This document shows, in pieces, positions 5,804 to 20,539 of a DNA stretch of 25,365 nucleotides. The notes under the pieces are model-generated. The model worked only from the letters and a program-made list of their open reading frames with translations. It had not been told where the DNA came from and did not search any database. The first letter of the stretch is position 1, and the number at the start of each line of letters is the position of its first letter. The stretch spans positions 1 to 25,365 of the IMG/VR virus record IMGVR_UViG_3300027659_000188; one strand, given 5' to 3'. The stretch is from a virus. A program made the translations under genes and the position numbers.

Positions 5804-7048
5804 TCACCACGTGTAAACACGAGCATATCCTGCTGCACCTGCCCCACCTGCTCCACTATTGCCGCTATTATTACCACTACCTCCTCCACCACCACCACCA
5901 GCACCAAATGCACCGCCAGCACCACCAGAACCACCAACACCAGATGGATTTGAGCCGCCGCCACCGCCACCTTGTCGACCTACTCCAGCAACACCTGCGC
6001 CACCTCCAGACGTACCGCCAGCACCACCACCGCCAGCATTTCCTGAAGAACTTCCACCAGGGCCACCAGCATTTGATGCAGAGCCACCACCGCCAAATGA
6101 AGCACCACCGCCACCACCACCAGCAGGGCCACCTTGAAATGACGAACCTCCACCACCTGCGCCAGCATAGCCACCTGTACCGCCACCACCGCCGCCATAA
6201 CCTGCGCCAGCACTACTTGCTCCACCACCAAATCCACCTGTATCATTAGGTGAACCAGAAGTCCCACCACTACCAGCACTTAGTGTACCGCCACCACCGC
6301 CGCCGTTCGTATTAGTACCTCCAGCACCATCAACCCCACCAGGGCCACCACCGCCACCGTATGCAGATAAAAGTGTGCCAAATGTTGTATCACCACCGTT
6401 TGATCCATTATTTCCAGCAGTATCTGAAGCTGTTTGAGCAACCCCGCCAGCACCACCTGCTCCGATAGTTATAGATACCGTCGATGGTAAATCAGCAGCA
6501 GGGAATATACGAGTTACATAAGACCCACCTCCACCTCCACCTCCACCATCAGCATTTACAGCACCTTTTCTACCACTGCCGCCTCCACCACCACCAGCCC
6601 ATAGTTCTACCATTACAAATACATCAGTGGCTTTTTTAGCAAACGTACCATTAGATGAAAATGTAGTTACTGAGCCAGTTACAGAAGCCGTTGCGTATCC
6701 AAGATTACCAGAGCCATCTGTACTAATTAGTTGACCATTAGTTCCTAAAGCAGTAGGTAGCGTTAGCGTATAGTTCGCAGCCAATGTAGTCGGTGCTTGC
6801 AATGCAACATAATTAGATGAATCCGAATCAGATAGTCTGACATCACCCTGAGCTAAAACAGTTAGATTCCCACCGACAGTAAAGCTATCGCCTGACGTGC
6901 CTGTTTGCTGATCTTTCAATTGTGACATTAATTCCCGAATAGCGTTATTAATTCCGCTTGGGGCGCACCCTTCCGCGATGTTAATACTGTCAATATCGGT
7001 ATTAAGTGCAGGGTTTGCATCAAATTCACTAATCTTTGTCTTTGCCAT
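5804..7048 (-). CDS. Glycine-rich tail fibre / adhesin-type protein
   Basis: This is a 414-aa structural protein. Residues 1 to about 130 form an ordered N-terminal part (MAKTKISEFD... then a fibre-like segment with LTLPTALGTNGQLISTDGSGN) that presumably attaches to the tail. From about 150 to 405 it is dominated by glycine blocks separated by short turns, ending in GYARVYTW. Such glycine-rich domains resemble the polyglycine-II sandwich of the S16-type gp38 adhesin, which binds host receptors. The receptor role is inference from that resemblance. AGGAATAAATC precedes the ATG. It is the last structural gene before the lysis cluster. Pro-rich frames on the opposite strand are shadows of its GGT codons. 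Confidence 0.8.
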   Translation of the reverse strand: MAKTKISEFDANPALNTDIDSINIAEGCAPSGINNAIRELMSQLKDQQTGTSGDSFTVGGNLTVLAQGDVRLSDSDSSNYVALQAPTTLAANYTLTLPTALGTNGQLISTDGSGNLGYATASVTGSVTTFSSNGTFAKKATDVFVMVELWAGGGGGGSGRKGAVNADGGGGGGGGSYVTRIFPAADLPSTVSITIGAGGAGGVAQTASDTAGNNGSNGGDTTFGTLLSAYGGGGGPGGVDGAGGTNTNGGGGGGTLSAGSGGTSGSPNDTGGFGGGASSAGAGYGGGGGGTGGYAGAGGGGSSFQGGPAGGGGGGASFGGGGSASNAGGPGGSSSGNAGGGGAGGTSGGGAGVAGVGRQGGGGGGSNPSGVGGSGGAGGAFGAGGGGGGGSGNNSGNSGAGGAGAAGYARVYTW

Positions 7049-15426: not shown

Positions 15427-16248
15427 TTAGAATGTGATTGAACCCGAAGCTGTAAATTTGTATACAGTATTTGATCCAACGGTTGTAACTGTGGGTGATC
15501 CTGTCGTAGAAGCTGCTGCCACTGGAGAGGAAATAATTACTATGCCAGAGCCGCCACTTCCTCCAACACCAAGACCTCCTGCTCCACCGCCGCCACCGCC
15601 ACCACCAGTGTTTACAGTTCCGCTAGTCGCTGCGGTTGCATTAGCACTACCAGCACCGCCACCACCAGAGCCACCAGCCCCCGCTACTCCACCTAATACG
15701 GCGTATGCACCACCACCACCACCACCAGCGTATGTAGTTGACGATCCTAAAATTGATGATGCTTTTCCATTGCCGCCAGCACCACCAGTTCCGCCGCCAG
15801 TCGCTATTCCAGTTTGACCTGCTGCATCCGCTCCTCCACCGCCACCACAAGCATAAGGAGCACCACCACCTGCATTGCCATTACCACCAGCATTTCCTTG
15901 ACCGGATGTTCCAGCAGAGCCATTACCATTATAAGCACCGCCTCCACCAGAACCACCAGTGCCGCTTGCCACACCTTCTTCACCACCTTTACCGCCACCT
16001 GTTGAAGTAATGGTATTAAATACAGAATTACTGCCATTTGTATTTTGTCCACCGCCAGCACCAACAGTAACAGTTAGTGACACTCCAGTAGAAACGGTAA
16101 AGCCAGTAGCAGTTCTGAATCCACCTGCGCCACCACCACCTGCCGTATTATTGCCACCACCACCGCCACCAGCTACGACAAGATATTCAACAACAATCTC
16201 AGGAGCTGCAAAAGTATTACCAAGCATATTAAGCATAATTCCACTCAT
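15427..16248 (-). CDS. Glycine-rich domain tail protein
   Basis: This 273-aa protein has a short N-terminus and the block VVEYLVVAGGGGGG (about 19-32). Long Gly runs with Ala/Ser/Asn follow to about 230, then the C-terminal segment GGSGIVIISS and GSNTVYKFTASGSITF. These ends are hallmarks of the phage glycine-rich domain. Its N- and C-termini differ from those of the 414-aa Gly-rich protein at 5804-7048, so the two are not simple duplicates. A polyglycine-II-like sandwich and host adhesion are inferred. The start overlaps the previous stop as ATGA. The complementary Pro-rich frames are shadows. Confidence 0.78.
   Translation of the reverse strand: MSGIMLNMLGNTFAAPEIVVEYLVVAGGGGGGNNTAGGGGAGGFRTATGFTVSTGVSLTVTVGAGGGQNTNGSNSVFNTITSTGGGKGGEEGVASGTGGSGGGGAYNGNGSAGTSGQGNAGGNGNAGGGAPYACGGGGGADAAGQTGIATGGGTGGAGGNGKASSILGSSTTYAGGGGGGAYAVLGGVAGAGGSGGGGAGSANATAATSGTVNTGGGGGGGGAGGLGVGGSGGSGIVIISSPVAAASTTGSPTVTTVGSNTVYKFTASGSITF
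15709..15726 (-). repeat. (GGT)6 trinucleotide run in a Gly-rich gene
   Basis: Six ACC units on the plus strand encode a run of Gly on the minus strand. Shorter runs of four or so occur elsewhere in this gene and in 5804-7048. Slippage would change length in steps of one residue without frameshift. Confidence 0.8.
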
Positions 16249-16982: not shown

Positions 16983-16985
16983 AAA

Positions 16986-17996: not shown

Positions 17997-18657
17997 TATC
18001 GCCCCTCAAGGCATCCTCATCTACATCATCCCAACTATATTCGTGCGTTCCTATGTGTCTAATGTGCATCGATAATTCATGGTCAACGTAGGTATCTATA
18101 CCCGCATCACCAGCCTTAACACAAAAGAATACATCCTCACCCACTACACCAGTTGGCCCCCATCCCGCATCAAACCACGGTACTGTAAGCGTTTCAAATA
18201 CTTTCTTACGGATCATTACCGCACCAAATCCTACAGCAGTAACTATCTCCATACCTTCCTTGCCACGAGAATCAACATTCGACCAATGATGCCTGATTCC
18301 CTTTTCATCCTCACTCTTAACCAATAACTTAGCGGTAGGGAATGATGGCTTACGTCTAGTTACTGCGTTTACACCAACTATGTCCACTTCACGACTTAAC
18401 ATAATTGTTATTAAATCATGCGGGAACCTCATGTCGCTATCAATAAACAGAACAGCGTCACAGCCCTCTTTTAAAGCCACCTGAGCCAACTTCTCACGCT
18501 GGTCGAATATCAACGTGCCAGGCATCGTATAGAGGCTTAGACCACCCTTTCCGTCCTTGCATCTAACTGACGCATCATGAGCACACATACGGGCAAAATC
18601 AAACGCAAATCCTGTATGTACTTCATCACGACATGGTACGCAAACGCCAATTCTCAT
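17983..18657 (-). CDS. GT-A fold glycosyltransferase
   Basis: The chosen ATG (18657) gives 224 aa, preceded by GGGGA with a 5-6 nt spacer and overlapping the upstream stop by 4 nt (ATGA); the longer form from 18708 would be mostly overlap. The N-terminus MRIGVCVPCRDEV is a nucleotide-sugar-binding strand and loop. FIDSDM (D73, D75) is the metal-binding DxD motif. GED (173-175) and a later His (H198) fit the catalytic acid and metal-ligand positions of family 2-like enzymes. The substrate could be a virion protein, phage DNA base or host glycan. Its placement between capsid and adaptor genes makes virion modification attractive but unproven. Confidence 0.85.
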   Translation of the reverse strand: MRIGVCVPCRDEVHTGFAFDFARMCAHDASVRCKDGKGGLSLYTMPGTLIFDQREKLAQVALKEGCDAVLFIDSDMRFPHDLITIMLSREVDIVGVNAVTRRKPSFPTAKLLVKSEDEKGIRHHWSNVDSRGKEGMEIVTAVGFGAVMIRKKVFETLTVPWFDAGWGPTGVVGEDVFFCVKAGDAGIDTYVDHELSMHIRHIGTHEYSWDDVDEDALRGDNATS

Positions 18658-18953
18658 ACTGTTCCCCGATAGATTTTTAAACCAGCTTGGTCTGGATGAT
18701 TCAGCCATGTTCTAAAGGCTTTATCATCTACAATTGCAAACCCTCGCATTATGCCCATCTCGTTTAACTTATCTATTGCTGTAAACGGTATGGAACCAAT
18801 CAAATGCAGGTCATCAGTTGCGCCTGTCCTAGCTTTATCTACCTCTTGAAGAACTTTGTTTCTAGCAAGTATGTCTGTAATGTCTTGGTTAGTCTCGATG
18901 ACGATACCACCATCACCATCCCTATGAACTTTTTGATTTCTAAAGTTTGTCAT
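18654..18953 (-). CDS. Conserved phage protein downstream of capsid gene
   Basis: This 99-aa protein's central pattern (VIETNQDITDILARNKVLQE, about 18-37; DDLHLIGSIPFTAIDKL, about 47-63; LNHPDQAGLKIYRG near the end) matches a small family. In podophages it lies between the capsid and adaptor genes. Its role is unknown, possibly virion assembly. The ATG follows the stop of the HNH gene directly (TAAATG) and has no visible Shine-Dalgarno sequence, so translation may depend on ribosomes finishing the HNH gene. The stop overlaps the glycosyltransferase start (ATGA). Confidence 0.7.
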   Translation of the reverse strand: MTNFRNQKVHRDGDGGIVIETNQDITDILARNKVLQEVDKARTGATDDLHLIGSIPFTAIDKLNEMGIMRGFAIVDDKAFRTWLNHPDQAGLKIYRGTV

Positions 18954-19535
18954 TTATTTAATATGTGACCAAGTTCTTCCAATTCTTACGCCTCTAATGC
19001 AATTAGGTGAGACATTTAATTGCCTTCCAAGCGCAGCATGATTAAGATTGCTTGCTCTAATTAATAAAACCTTTTCAGCATTAAGTAATGATTTACCATT
19101 TTCTTCGCCTAAAGGTGCTACTGTTTTTTTACGACCCTTGCGAATCATATCCTGCGTATTTTCTTTAGCAGTTCCTATTGTAAGATGATTAGGATTAACG
19201 CAACTAGGATTATCGCACTTGTGCATAATGTGCATCCCTTTCGGAATATCCTGATTGTTTGCTAATCTCCAACTTACCCTATGAGCTCCATCCGACCCAT
19301 CTTCTTTACTACCAACACTAAATCTTCCGTACCCATTTGACTGAATATTGCCAGTCCAATTCCAACAATCATTAGCTTCTTTTTTATCAACAAACATCCA
19401 AAATCTAACAACTAATGGTTCATGAGAGTTTTTTCTTGGATCAGAATTCCCATATTTCATTAATCTTTTGTAATGCTTTTGACAAAATCCACGACCTTTT
19501 GCAATTTGATTACAACCATCGTATTTACATTCCAT
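18954..19535 (-). CDS. Free-standing HNH homing endonuclease
   Basis: This 193-aa protein has three parts. An N-terminal zinc finger-like segment has C3, C8, C18 and H21. A central HNH_3-type nuclease has H85 in the HRVSW block, then H105-K-C-D-N-P and C112-V-N-P-N-H117-L; the DNA-binding helix KENTQDMIRKGR follows. A C-terminal HTH-like module (about 150-188, LLNAEKVLLIRASNLNHAALGR) probably recognises the target. Such genes are selfish elements that spread between phage genomes. It interrupts the capsid/99-aa gene pair. Its ATG comes 6 nt after GGGGG, which is buried in a hairpin (19535-19570). Confidence 0.9.
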   Translation of the reverse strand: MECKYDGCNQIAKGRGFCQKHYKRLMKYGNSDPRKNSHEPLVVRFWMFVDKKEANDCWNWTGNIQSNGYGRFSVGSKEDGSDGAHRVSWRLANNQDIPKGMHIMHKCDNPSCVNPNHLTIGTAKENTQDMIRKGRKKTVAPLGEENGKSLLNAEKVLLIRASNLNHAALGRQLNVSPNCIRGVRIGRTWSHIK

Positions 19536-19570
19536 AAGATACCCCCATGAGTTAACACAGGAGTATCTTA
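19535..19570 (-). promoter_or_regulatory. Hairpin masking the HNH gene's ribosome-binding site
   Basis: On the minus-strand RNA, AAGAUACUCC (19569-19560) pairs with GGGGUAUCUU (19545-19536). The stem is 10 bp with one U·G wobble, extendable by one pair at the base. The loop of 14 nt contains the palindrome GTTAAC. The 3' arm includes four of five Gs of the putative Shine-Dalgarno GGGGG and abuts the ATG at 19535. There is no U-run after it, so it is not a simple terminator. Translation silencing of homing endonucleases by such hairpins is known from T4 (I-TevI). The same hairpin could also protect the capsid mRNA 3' end. Confidence 0.65.
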
Positions 19571-19594
19571 CTTCATATCAGCTCATGCGTCAAA

Positions 19595-20539
19595 TCAGAG
19601 TGAGAAGTCAAGATCGGCTACGATCCCGTGAGCAGCCTCGTTTTTCACCTCAAGCGTTACCTCTGCCAGAATCTGAGTCTTATCGCTGTCACCAGATTTA
19701 GCCAACTCGTTCGTCATAAACGGACGGAGGAAAGCCATTGCTGCGTACTCAGGATCAAGGATCAGCATATCTCGTGCGCGCATGAACCTGTCAGGTACTA
19801 TACTCAGAGTCCCAAAATCGCTAGCGTAGAGATCAGCCGCGCCCACGATAACACCAGGCTCTGCTTTCGTTAGTTGATAACGATTAACTGCGATACCAGC
19901 AAAGGTAGAAACCTTCTGCTTACCAGCCGAACCAACGAACACAGCTTTAGGATTACCACCCGCATCAAAGATCGAAGCGATAACAGTCTTGAGCAATGCC
20001 TCAGTAGCAGTACGCTGTGTACCATCAGTACGAGTCGAAGTGCCTGAAGTTGCAGGAGCAGAACCGCTAGTACCTTGTGACGAGTTAGTCTTGATCCATG
20101 ACAGCAGTGAACCCATAGTGCGAGCTACTGTAGATGTACCAGCAGACTTACCCTGATTAGCAGTGATGATAGTCTCCAGATCACGCTTTAGCTCTTGTGA
20201 AGCCTTAGCCAACTGATAAGCCTTCTCAGACTTACGACCAGCTTTGTCTACTGTCTCCAGTGTTCCAGAGACTTGAACAGTCTTAGAAACGATTTGAGTA
20301 TAATTTCCAACGCGAGTCGTAGGAGTCATAGTGCCAGACGTAGCATCTGCACCCTCGACAGCAGCATTAGCTGTAGTAGCAGCAGCCAGAGAGTCAGTCT
20401 GCCACTCGTGATAAACAGCAGTAGCTTTAGTCTTACCAATAGACGACATGATAGGTGTCTCTGTCGGCGATATGTTGTAGATCATATCGGACAAATCTTC
20501 ACGCATACCTATAGCGGTAAATGTTTGATATGTAGGCAT
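19595..20539 (-). CDS. Major capsid protein (DUF5309 / SU10-like)
   Basis: This 314-aa protein has the hallmark N-terminus of the DUF5309 capsid family: TFTAIGMREDLSDMIYNISP (7-26) followed by TPIMSSIG. Further on come a Q-x-x-K-T-V-Q-V-S-G-T block, the KASQELKRDLETIITANQG spine helix (about 111-129), a Ser/Gly/Thr-rich loop and VFVGSAGKQKVSTF. The C-terminal RPFMTNELAKSGDSDKTQI and E-V-T-L-E-V-K-N-E-A-A-H-G end is also typical. It builds the icosahedral head with an HK97 fold. AAAGGAAATTATT is a good ribosome-binding site. It follows the scaffold gene by 11 bp, as expected. Confidence 0.93.
   Translation of the reverse strand: MPTYQTFTAIGMREDLSDMIYNISPTETPIMSSIGKTKATAVYHEWQTDSLAAATTANAAVEGADATSGTMTPTTRVGNYTQIVSKTVQVSGTLETVDKAGRKSEKAYQLAKASQELKRDLETIITANQGKSAGTSTVARTMGSLLSWIKTNSSQGTSGSAPATSGTSTRTDGTQRTATEALLKTVIASIFDAGGNPKAVFVGSAGKQKVSTFAGIAVNRYQLTKAEPGVIVGAADLYASDFGTLSIVPDRFMRARDMLILDPEYAAMAFLRPFMTNELAKSGDSDKTQILAEVTLEVKNEAAHGIVADLDFSL

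Follow-up and report, generated by a model that had tools for sequence, protein, structure and literature searches.

In phages of the T4 type, homing endonuclease genes follow a rule by which the gene stays silent on the message of its host operon and is switched on from a promoter of its own. I-TevI, I-TevII and I-TevIII, together with segB of T4 and mobE of Aeh1, carry hairpins that sequester the ribosome-binding site, and the transcripts initiated at their own promoters lack the 5′ arm of the stem (PMC2988022, PMC3014915). The leaders of T4 genes e, soc and 49 are similarly off on read-through RNA and on from an internal promoter, with an effect of ~100-fold for e (PMC3014915). The literature on hairpin-controlled homing genes that proved relevant here consists mainly of T4 reviews, subscription papers being poorly covered, and is weak evidence as to novelty. 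We propose that the T4 rule likely has a counterpart in dozens of uncultured freshwater phages, where the controlling element lies outside the T4-like group, uses host-type promoters and resides in the capsid operon.

The window, by which we mean the whole 25,365-base virus record (IMG/VR IMGVR_UViG_3300027659_000188), carries its late gene block on the minus strand in the order terminase, portal, scaffold, major capsid protein (MCP), HNH, a 99-aa gene, a 241-aa gene and tail genes. The gap between the MCP stop and the HNH start at 19535 measures 59 nt and is framed by the following features:

19595–20539, minus strand: major capsid protein gene (SU10_MCP; Pfam PF17236, 1.1e-102; phrog_1328), upstream gene of the late operon
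19597–19595, minus strand: MCP stop codon TGA, read from the sequence
18954–19535, minus strand: HNH endonuclease gene, 193 aa, assigned by Pfam HNH_3 and PHROG matches
18654–18953, minus strand: 99-aa gene of the head/tail cluster (phrog_3982), starting TAA/ATG after HNH and lacking a Shine-Dalgarno (SD) sequence

The HNH open reading frame matches PF13392 (HNH_3, 3.1e-11) and the PHROG category 'HNH endonuclease' (3e-36); by inspection, the protein comprises an N-terminal zinc-finger-like part, the central HNH_3 domain and a C-terminal helix-turn-helix-like part, and H85, H105, N109, N114 and H117 of the HNH_3 protein are invariant among 15 relatives. An Rfam scan of the window gave 0 matches at the gathering threshold, and thus neither a group I intron nor another known RNA family, the tRNA scan was empty, and no intron was found at the capsid/HNH locus. 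Judged by sequence, the gene is probably a free-standing HNH homing-endonuclease unit, with presumed homing activity, placed between the capsid and 99-aa genes, and the 59-nt gap in front of it probably acts as a switch, in which a single hairpin overlaps a sigma70-type −10, an anti-SD and the SD itself. We assign a probability of roughly 0.77 to this reading as a whole, gene and switch taken jointly.

Read 5′ to 3′ on the minus strand, the gap runs from the MCP stop TGA into TTTGACGCATGAGCTGATATGAAG TAAGATACTCCTGTG uuaacu CATGGGGGTATCTTA TG, and folding resolves it into the following elements:

19556–19570, minus strand: hairpin 5′ arm UAAGAUACUCCUGUG, from folding, including the anti-SD CUCC
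19550–19555, minus strand: hairpin loop UUAACU, 6 nt, from folding
19535–19549, minus strand: hairpin 3′ arm CAUGGGGGUAUCUUA, from folding and covariation; its last base is the A of the HNH ATG
19542–19546, minus strand: HNH Shine-Dalgarno GGGGG, within the 3′ arm and 6 nt ahead of the ATG (19535–19533)

The initial annotation had described a 10-bp stem that occludes the SD; the hairpin is real, its 3′ arm including the SD and its foot lying at the ATG, but the stem is longer, with 15 bp joining 19570–19556 to 19549–19535 and one pair more in RNAfold (15–16 bp). The minimum free energy of the 111-nt hairpin region is −33.4 kcal/mol against −20.2 ± 3.0 in 200 dinucleotide shuffles (z = −4.47), and 0 of the 200 shuffles were as stable. 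The window hairpin carries no U-tract and drew no terminator call on the minus strand, and so does not qualify as an intrinsic terminator.

To place the element in an evolutionary context, we scanned viral contigs using the HNH protein as query and then an alignment, which yielded 49 non-redundant regions between an MCP stop and an HNH ATG (HNH+), and two further scans brought in more distant HNH+ loci. Every one of the 49 gaps comes after an SU10-type MCP; a hairpin sits just 5′ of the HNH ATG in all 49, over a range of capsid identity of ~55–100%, and it buries the SD in 48, L021 being doubtful. In alignment A2 (13 sequences, 14 pairs), 98.3% of cells are paired, compared with 44–59% in slid registers, and 18 cells show double changes, distributed over five pairs (e.g., A-U/G-C/C-G at columns 12–39). 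In alignment A3 (22 sequences, 13 pairs), the paired fraction is 90.2% versus 42–59% when slid, with eight pairs changed on both sides and 45 double-change cells (0 of 500 shuffles as good). The compensatory changes in both alignments thus identify the SD hairpin as a selected RNA stem, and the conservation and covariation among relatives sharing the HNH gene that had been set beforehand as a test of the hairpin are borne out.

These data also bear on a reading that places the function of the inverted repeat in the DNA, as an operator or binding site of the HNH protein for autorepression as in I-TevI, with the RNA hairpin secondary. I-TevI does bind an operator that overlaps its own promoter (PMC2988022), and the palindrome here overlaps the −10; however, the arms vary widely among relatives while the pairing and the SD stay, and many of the pairs are G-U, which makes sense only in RNA, so that we regard the operator as very improbable.

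The HNH+ regions fall into several classes with respect to the sequences embedded in the element. Class A relatives read TTGAC[A/G/C/T]-N17-TA[A/G/T]G[A/G/C]T, and their spacers are unrelated in sequence; in class B, TATAAT abuts the anti-SD shortly after the MCP stop; class C carries TGATATAAT or TGATACAAT (extended −10) together with a U-tract 3′ of the 3′ arm. The hairpins of class D, whose MCP is ~50% identical (L369, L371, L374, L375, L377, L378 and L387, together with L020 and L022), are strong and of the terminator type (e.g., CCGGAGG-UUUUU-AUG), with TTGAC or TTTAC upstream in most and a weak −10 in the loop. In two further sequences (L026, 217–1525, and L027, 1956–3264), the HNH gene is split into two separated halves, the C-terminal half shares its reading frame with another stretch that is possibly terminase-like, and the hairpin SD is altered from GGGAGG to GGTAGG; the split gene may be a decaying copy or an assembly join.

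The comparison with 51 non-redundant relatives that lack the HNH gene (HNH-minus) addresses whether the hairpin is simply a 3′ element of the capsid mRNA, be it a terminator, an attenuator or a 3′-end stabiliser, whose occlusion of the SD would be incidental because such hairpins are C-rich and then G-rich. Nearly all HNH-minus gaps do hold a hairpin after the capsid stop, and the closest relatives present textbook intrinsic terminators (GCCCCUGAC-UUCG-GUUGGGGGC-UUUUU); in addition, UUUU precedes the ATG in 15 of the 49 HNH+ hairpins. The HNH-minus hairpins are nevertheless of a different kind, GC-rich with a UUCG- or UAAC-like tetraloop and often a U-tract, whereas those of HNH+ relatives differ from them in sequence, loop and register, bear a −10 and have their 3′ end at the HNH ATG, and that of the window is devoid of a U-tract. 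Further evidence comes from L019, which has both the SD hairpin and the native terminator, and whose flanks are 93–96% (upstream) and 97–98% (downstream) identical to those of the empty relatives L098 and L095. Its insert consists of exactly the leader with its hairpin and the HNH ORF, lodged between the MCP stop and the intact native terminator, which indicates that the SD hairpin entered together with the HNH gene. Comparison of HNH+ with HNH-minus loci, and of L019 with L098 and L095, thus reveals a presence/absence polymorphism of HNH at one site with a clean empty site, and the hairpin of the HNH-minus relatives is a different element, so the SD hairpin is not the shared capsid 3′ element that the initial annotation had named as its refuting case. 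We therefore consider the capsid-element reading improbable and retain that of a hairpin belonging to the HNH unit. The gap after the MCP normally houses a capsid terminator or attenuator, which the HNH unit usually replaces. That a terminator or attenuator hairpin is already present in the HNH-minus gap also tempers the earlier proposal that the hairpin serves as a brake on toxicity, which is not the sole possible reason for its presence.

Three HNH-minus relatives (L070, L102 and L116) carry, right after the MCP stop, ~14 nt near-identical to the start of the class B leader (e.g., CGGATTTTGATATA), followed by the native tetraloop hairpin; the match could represent scars of HNH loss or pre-insertion sequence.

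A capsid-proximal hairpin is familiar from phage T7, where the Tφ terminator hairpin follows capsid gene 10 and has neither an SD nor a promoter for the next gene. The hairpin of the HNH-minus relatives resembles Tφ in its position just after the major capsid gene, and the window hairpin departs from it in containing both an SD and a candidate promoter for the gene that follows.

That candidate promoter is embedded in the gap, which reads TTGACG-N17-TAAGAT, with TAAGAT forming the base of the hairpin 5′ arm:

19588–19593, minus strand: −35-like hexamer TTGACG, directly 3′ of the capsid stop; conserved in class A at N17
19565–19570, minus strand: −10-like hexamer TAAGAT, in the outer part of the hairpin 5′ arm, N17 from the −35
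19558, minus strand: predicted transcription start, placing +1 7 nt after the −10; 23 nt ahead of the ATG, leaving 3 nt of the 5′ arm

Scored over the whole region, the promoter is modest at any single locus (shuffle p = 0.025 in the window; median p = 0.06 across loci), and a 9/12 consensus scan gave a lower site count for the region than for its shuffles. As the promoter is weak locus by locus, the case for it rests on comparison, and we replaced whole-region shuffle scoring with a register-anchored comparison of −10 sequences against the HNH-minus relatives. A TANNNT motif placed for a start at the loop occurs in 41 of 49 HNH+ but only 6 of 51 HNH-minus hairpins, and the −10 scores of the two sets differ with a rank-test p = 3e-11, a figure to be read with the relatedness of the sequences in mind, which leaves about five independent contrasts. 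Anywhere in the gap, TANNNT is found in 46 of the 49 HNH+ regions, relatives having TATAAT or TACAAT, and 42 of these 46 also possess a −35 matching at least 5/6, a TGn extension or a perfect TATAAT; the extended TGn −10 is present in 14 HNH+ loci. Class B promoters have no clear −35, and class D and L020–L022 offer only weak −10s in the loop. From the fixed register we infer promoter activity and the start site, with which the transcripts of the HNH+ relatives would retain 3 nt (median) of the 5′ arm.

A simpler account would dispense with the promoter and retain RBS occlusion alone, with low HNH translation arising through read-through, breathing of the hairpin or its unfolding by capsid-translating ribosomes. 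The stem and its overlap with the SD are indeed the best-supported features of the locus, and the window promoter score is modest; against this stand the −10 register, fixed in 41/49 versus 6/51, and the class A TTGAC at N17 and the TGn −10 in 14 loci, which lie partly outside the stem. Pairing alone is no explanation for the conservation seen outside the stem, which covers the −35 TTGAC, spaced at exactly N17, and the initial letters of TATAAT, and we regard occlusion without a promoter as rather unlikely. The initial annotation had taken the element for a brake only; the brake is kept, and the embedded sigma70-like promoter that it had missed would turn it into a switch.

In the switch that we favor, capsid mRNA reading through the gap would form the full hairpin, burying the SD and leaving HNH untranslated from the abundant late message. 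Transcription from the embedded promoter would begin at the loop or within 3–5 nt of it, and the resulting transcript, lacking most of the 5′ arm, would have its SD free and HNH translated. Consistent with this, the predicted median probability that the SD is unpaired is 0.00 on read-through RNA versus 0.45 on RNA from the predicted +1. In the window the two values are 0.00 and 0.32, with residual structure around the SD remaining on the own-promoter RNA; the exposed SD holds for start shifts of 0 to +4 nt and is lost at shifts of −7 or more. In classes C and D, where a U-tract is present, the hairpin would also be expected to terminate the capsid message, which does not apply to the window. 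A host sigma70-type promoter would permit expression from early in infection. Such a switch would account for the position of a selfish, DNA-cutting gene behind the late gene with the highest expression.

Measured against the described systems, the element shares with I-TevI, I-TevII and I-TevIII an endonuclease of the homing kind whose SD lies in a stable stem on read-through RNA, as indicated here by prediction and covariation. A promoter that skips the 5′ arm, as in T4, is predicted from the sequence: the −10 coincides with the base of the 5′ arm, and a transcript from the predicted start would lack nearly all of that arm. Unlike I-TevI, which resides in an intron and uses a T4 late promoter (TATAAATA), the window gene is free-standing after the capsid gene with a predicted sigma70-like promoter; the gap contains TTGACG-N17-TAAGAT and no match to the T4 late promoter. 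Moreover, the message silenced here is the late one, and whereas the T4 late promoter delays expression, a sigma70-type promoter would reverse that order. The free-standing position between genes of a phage operon, combined with a hairpin and an own (predicted) promoter, recalls mobE of Aeh1, itself an HNH gene, and segB of T4, but those belong to T4-like phages, lie in the nrdA/nrdB or tRNA region and use a late promoter, while the present element occupies the capsid gap of an SU10-MCP phage and has terminator-like versions in relatives. T4 e, soc and 49 share its on/off logic and, unlike the window HNH, are not homing genes. We therefore file the element under the same logic as I-TevI control and not as a member of the T4-type late-promoter group. 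The T4-like silencing of read-through messages invoked in the initial annotation accordingly survives both comparisons as SD-occluding logic, the translation block and its size being predicted from sequence.

Downstream, the 99-aa gene does start directly after the HNH stop, and no SD-like sequence is found in the 15 nt before its start. Explaining this as a plain insertion scar, as had been suggested, is too simple: the HNH stop and the next start overlap in 30 of the 49 HNH+ loci (mostly as ATGA) and abut in six, an SD-like motif before the 99-aa homologue is kept in 12, and the nearest empty relatives show only a weak SD-like sequence there. Translation of the gene is probably coupled to that of HNH, on which its level may then depend. 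One could accordingly suppose that the embedded promoter is an internal late-operon promoter that mainly serves the 99-aa and tail genes, with HNH as a passenger that makes those genes dependent on it. The overlapping or abutting junctions (36/49), mostly devoid of a separate SD, would suit such an arrangement, but with a comparable −10 in 6 of 51 HNH-minus relatives the downstream genes manage without the promoter, and we give this explanation little chance compared with a promoter for HNH itself. In L390 (MW202462), L106, L107, L109 and L111, the 99-aa homologue follows right after a strong seven-T terminator, without an SD.

To gauge how specific the composite signature is, we examined 5,453 ORF starts from all loci collected to that point, the window included, a set enriched in HNH genes because HNH had been the query. 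Of these starts, 68 lie close to a stem of 11 bp or more whose 3′ arm contains an SD, and 59 of the 68 belong to HNH genes; the full composite of hairpin, SD and −10 occurs at 40 HNH starts and at 0 others, so that the ~60-bp part provides a searchable signature that picks out only HNH genes in this set. HNH genes do not carry the module as a rule, given that no such hairpin is present in the GenBank HNH relatives checked (Nepra, PPWS4, VAC1, Katbat, Footloose, Rousseau, Jinkies and others), where most HNH genes are directly coupled to the preceding gene; it is likewise absent from the distant viral HNH matches L028–L039. As a marker, the plain DNA pattern of the arms (GATACTCC...GGRGTATC) was discarded, since it occurs at more than 100 mostly unrelated sites in viral contigs and the arm sequence is thus uninformative.

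More tentatively, the hairpin of ~40 nt, into which promoter, anti-SD/terminator and SD are packed, could be a portable, self-insulating 5′ part of HNH units with repeated origins beyond the T4-like phages, namely in the SU10-MCP clade, in a phage with a P22-like coat and, at a tail-gene site, in a second HNH family; by coupling the next structural gene to HNH translation, the unit would make its own loss costly to the phage; we hold this possible and, on sequence comparison, doubtful.

In L395 (MW202691, 1412–1495), an HNH gene lies 52 nt downstream of a P22-like coat gene, preceded by a 15-bp stem with TATAAT within its 5′ arm and GGAG within its 3′ arm. The phage clade of the window also contains a second, unrelated HNH family (HTH + HNH_3), inserted between tail genes (L405–L422 and L426), where TGATATAAT (extended −10) abuts a weaker stem ending at the ATG; the site corresponds to the junction near 16983 of the window, which does not carry this HNH gene. 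The tail region of the window also encodes, on the minus strand, two very glycine-rich predicted proteins of 414 and 273 aa (5804–7048 and 15427–16248).
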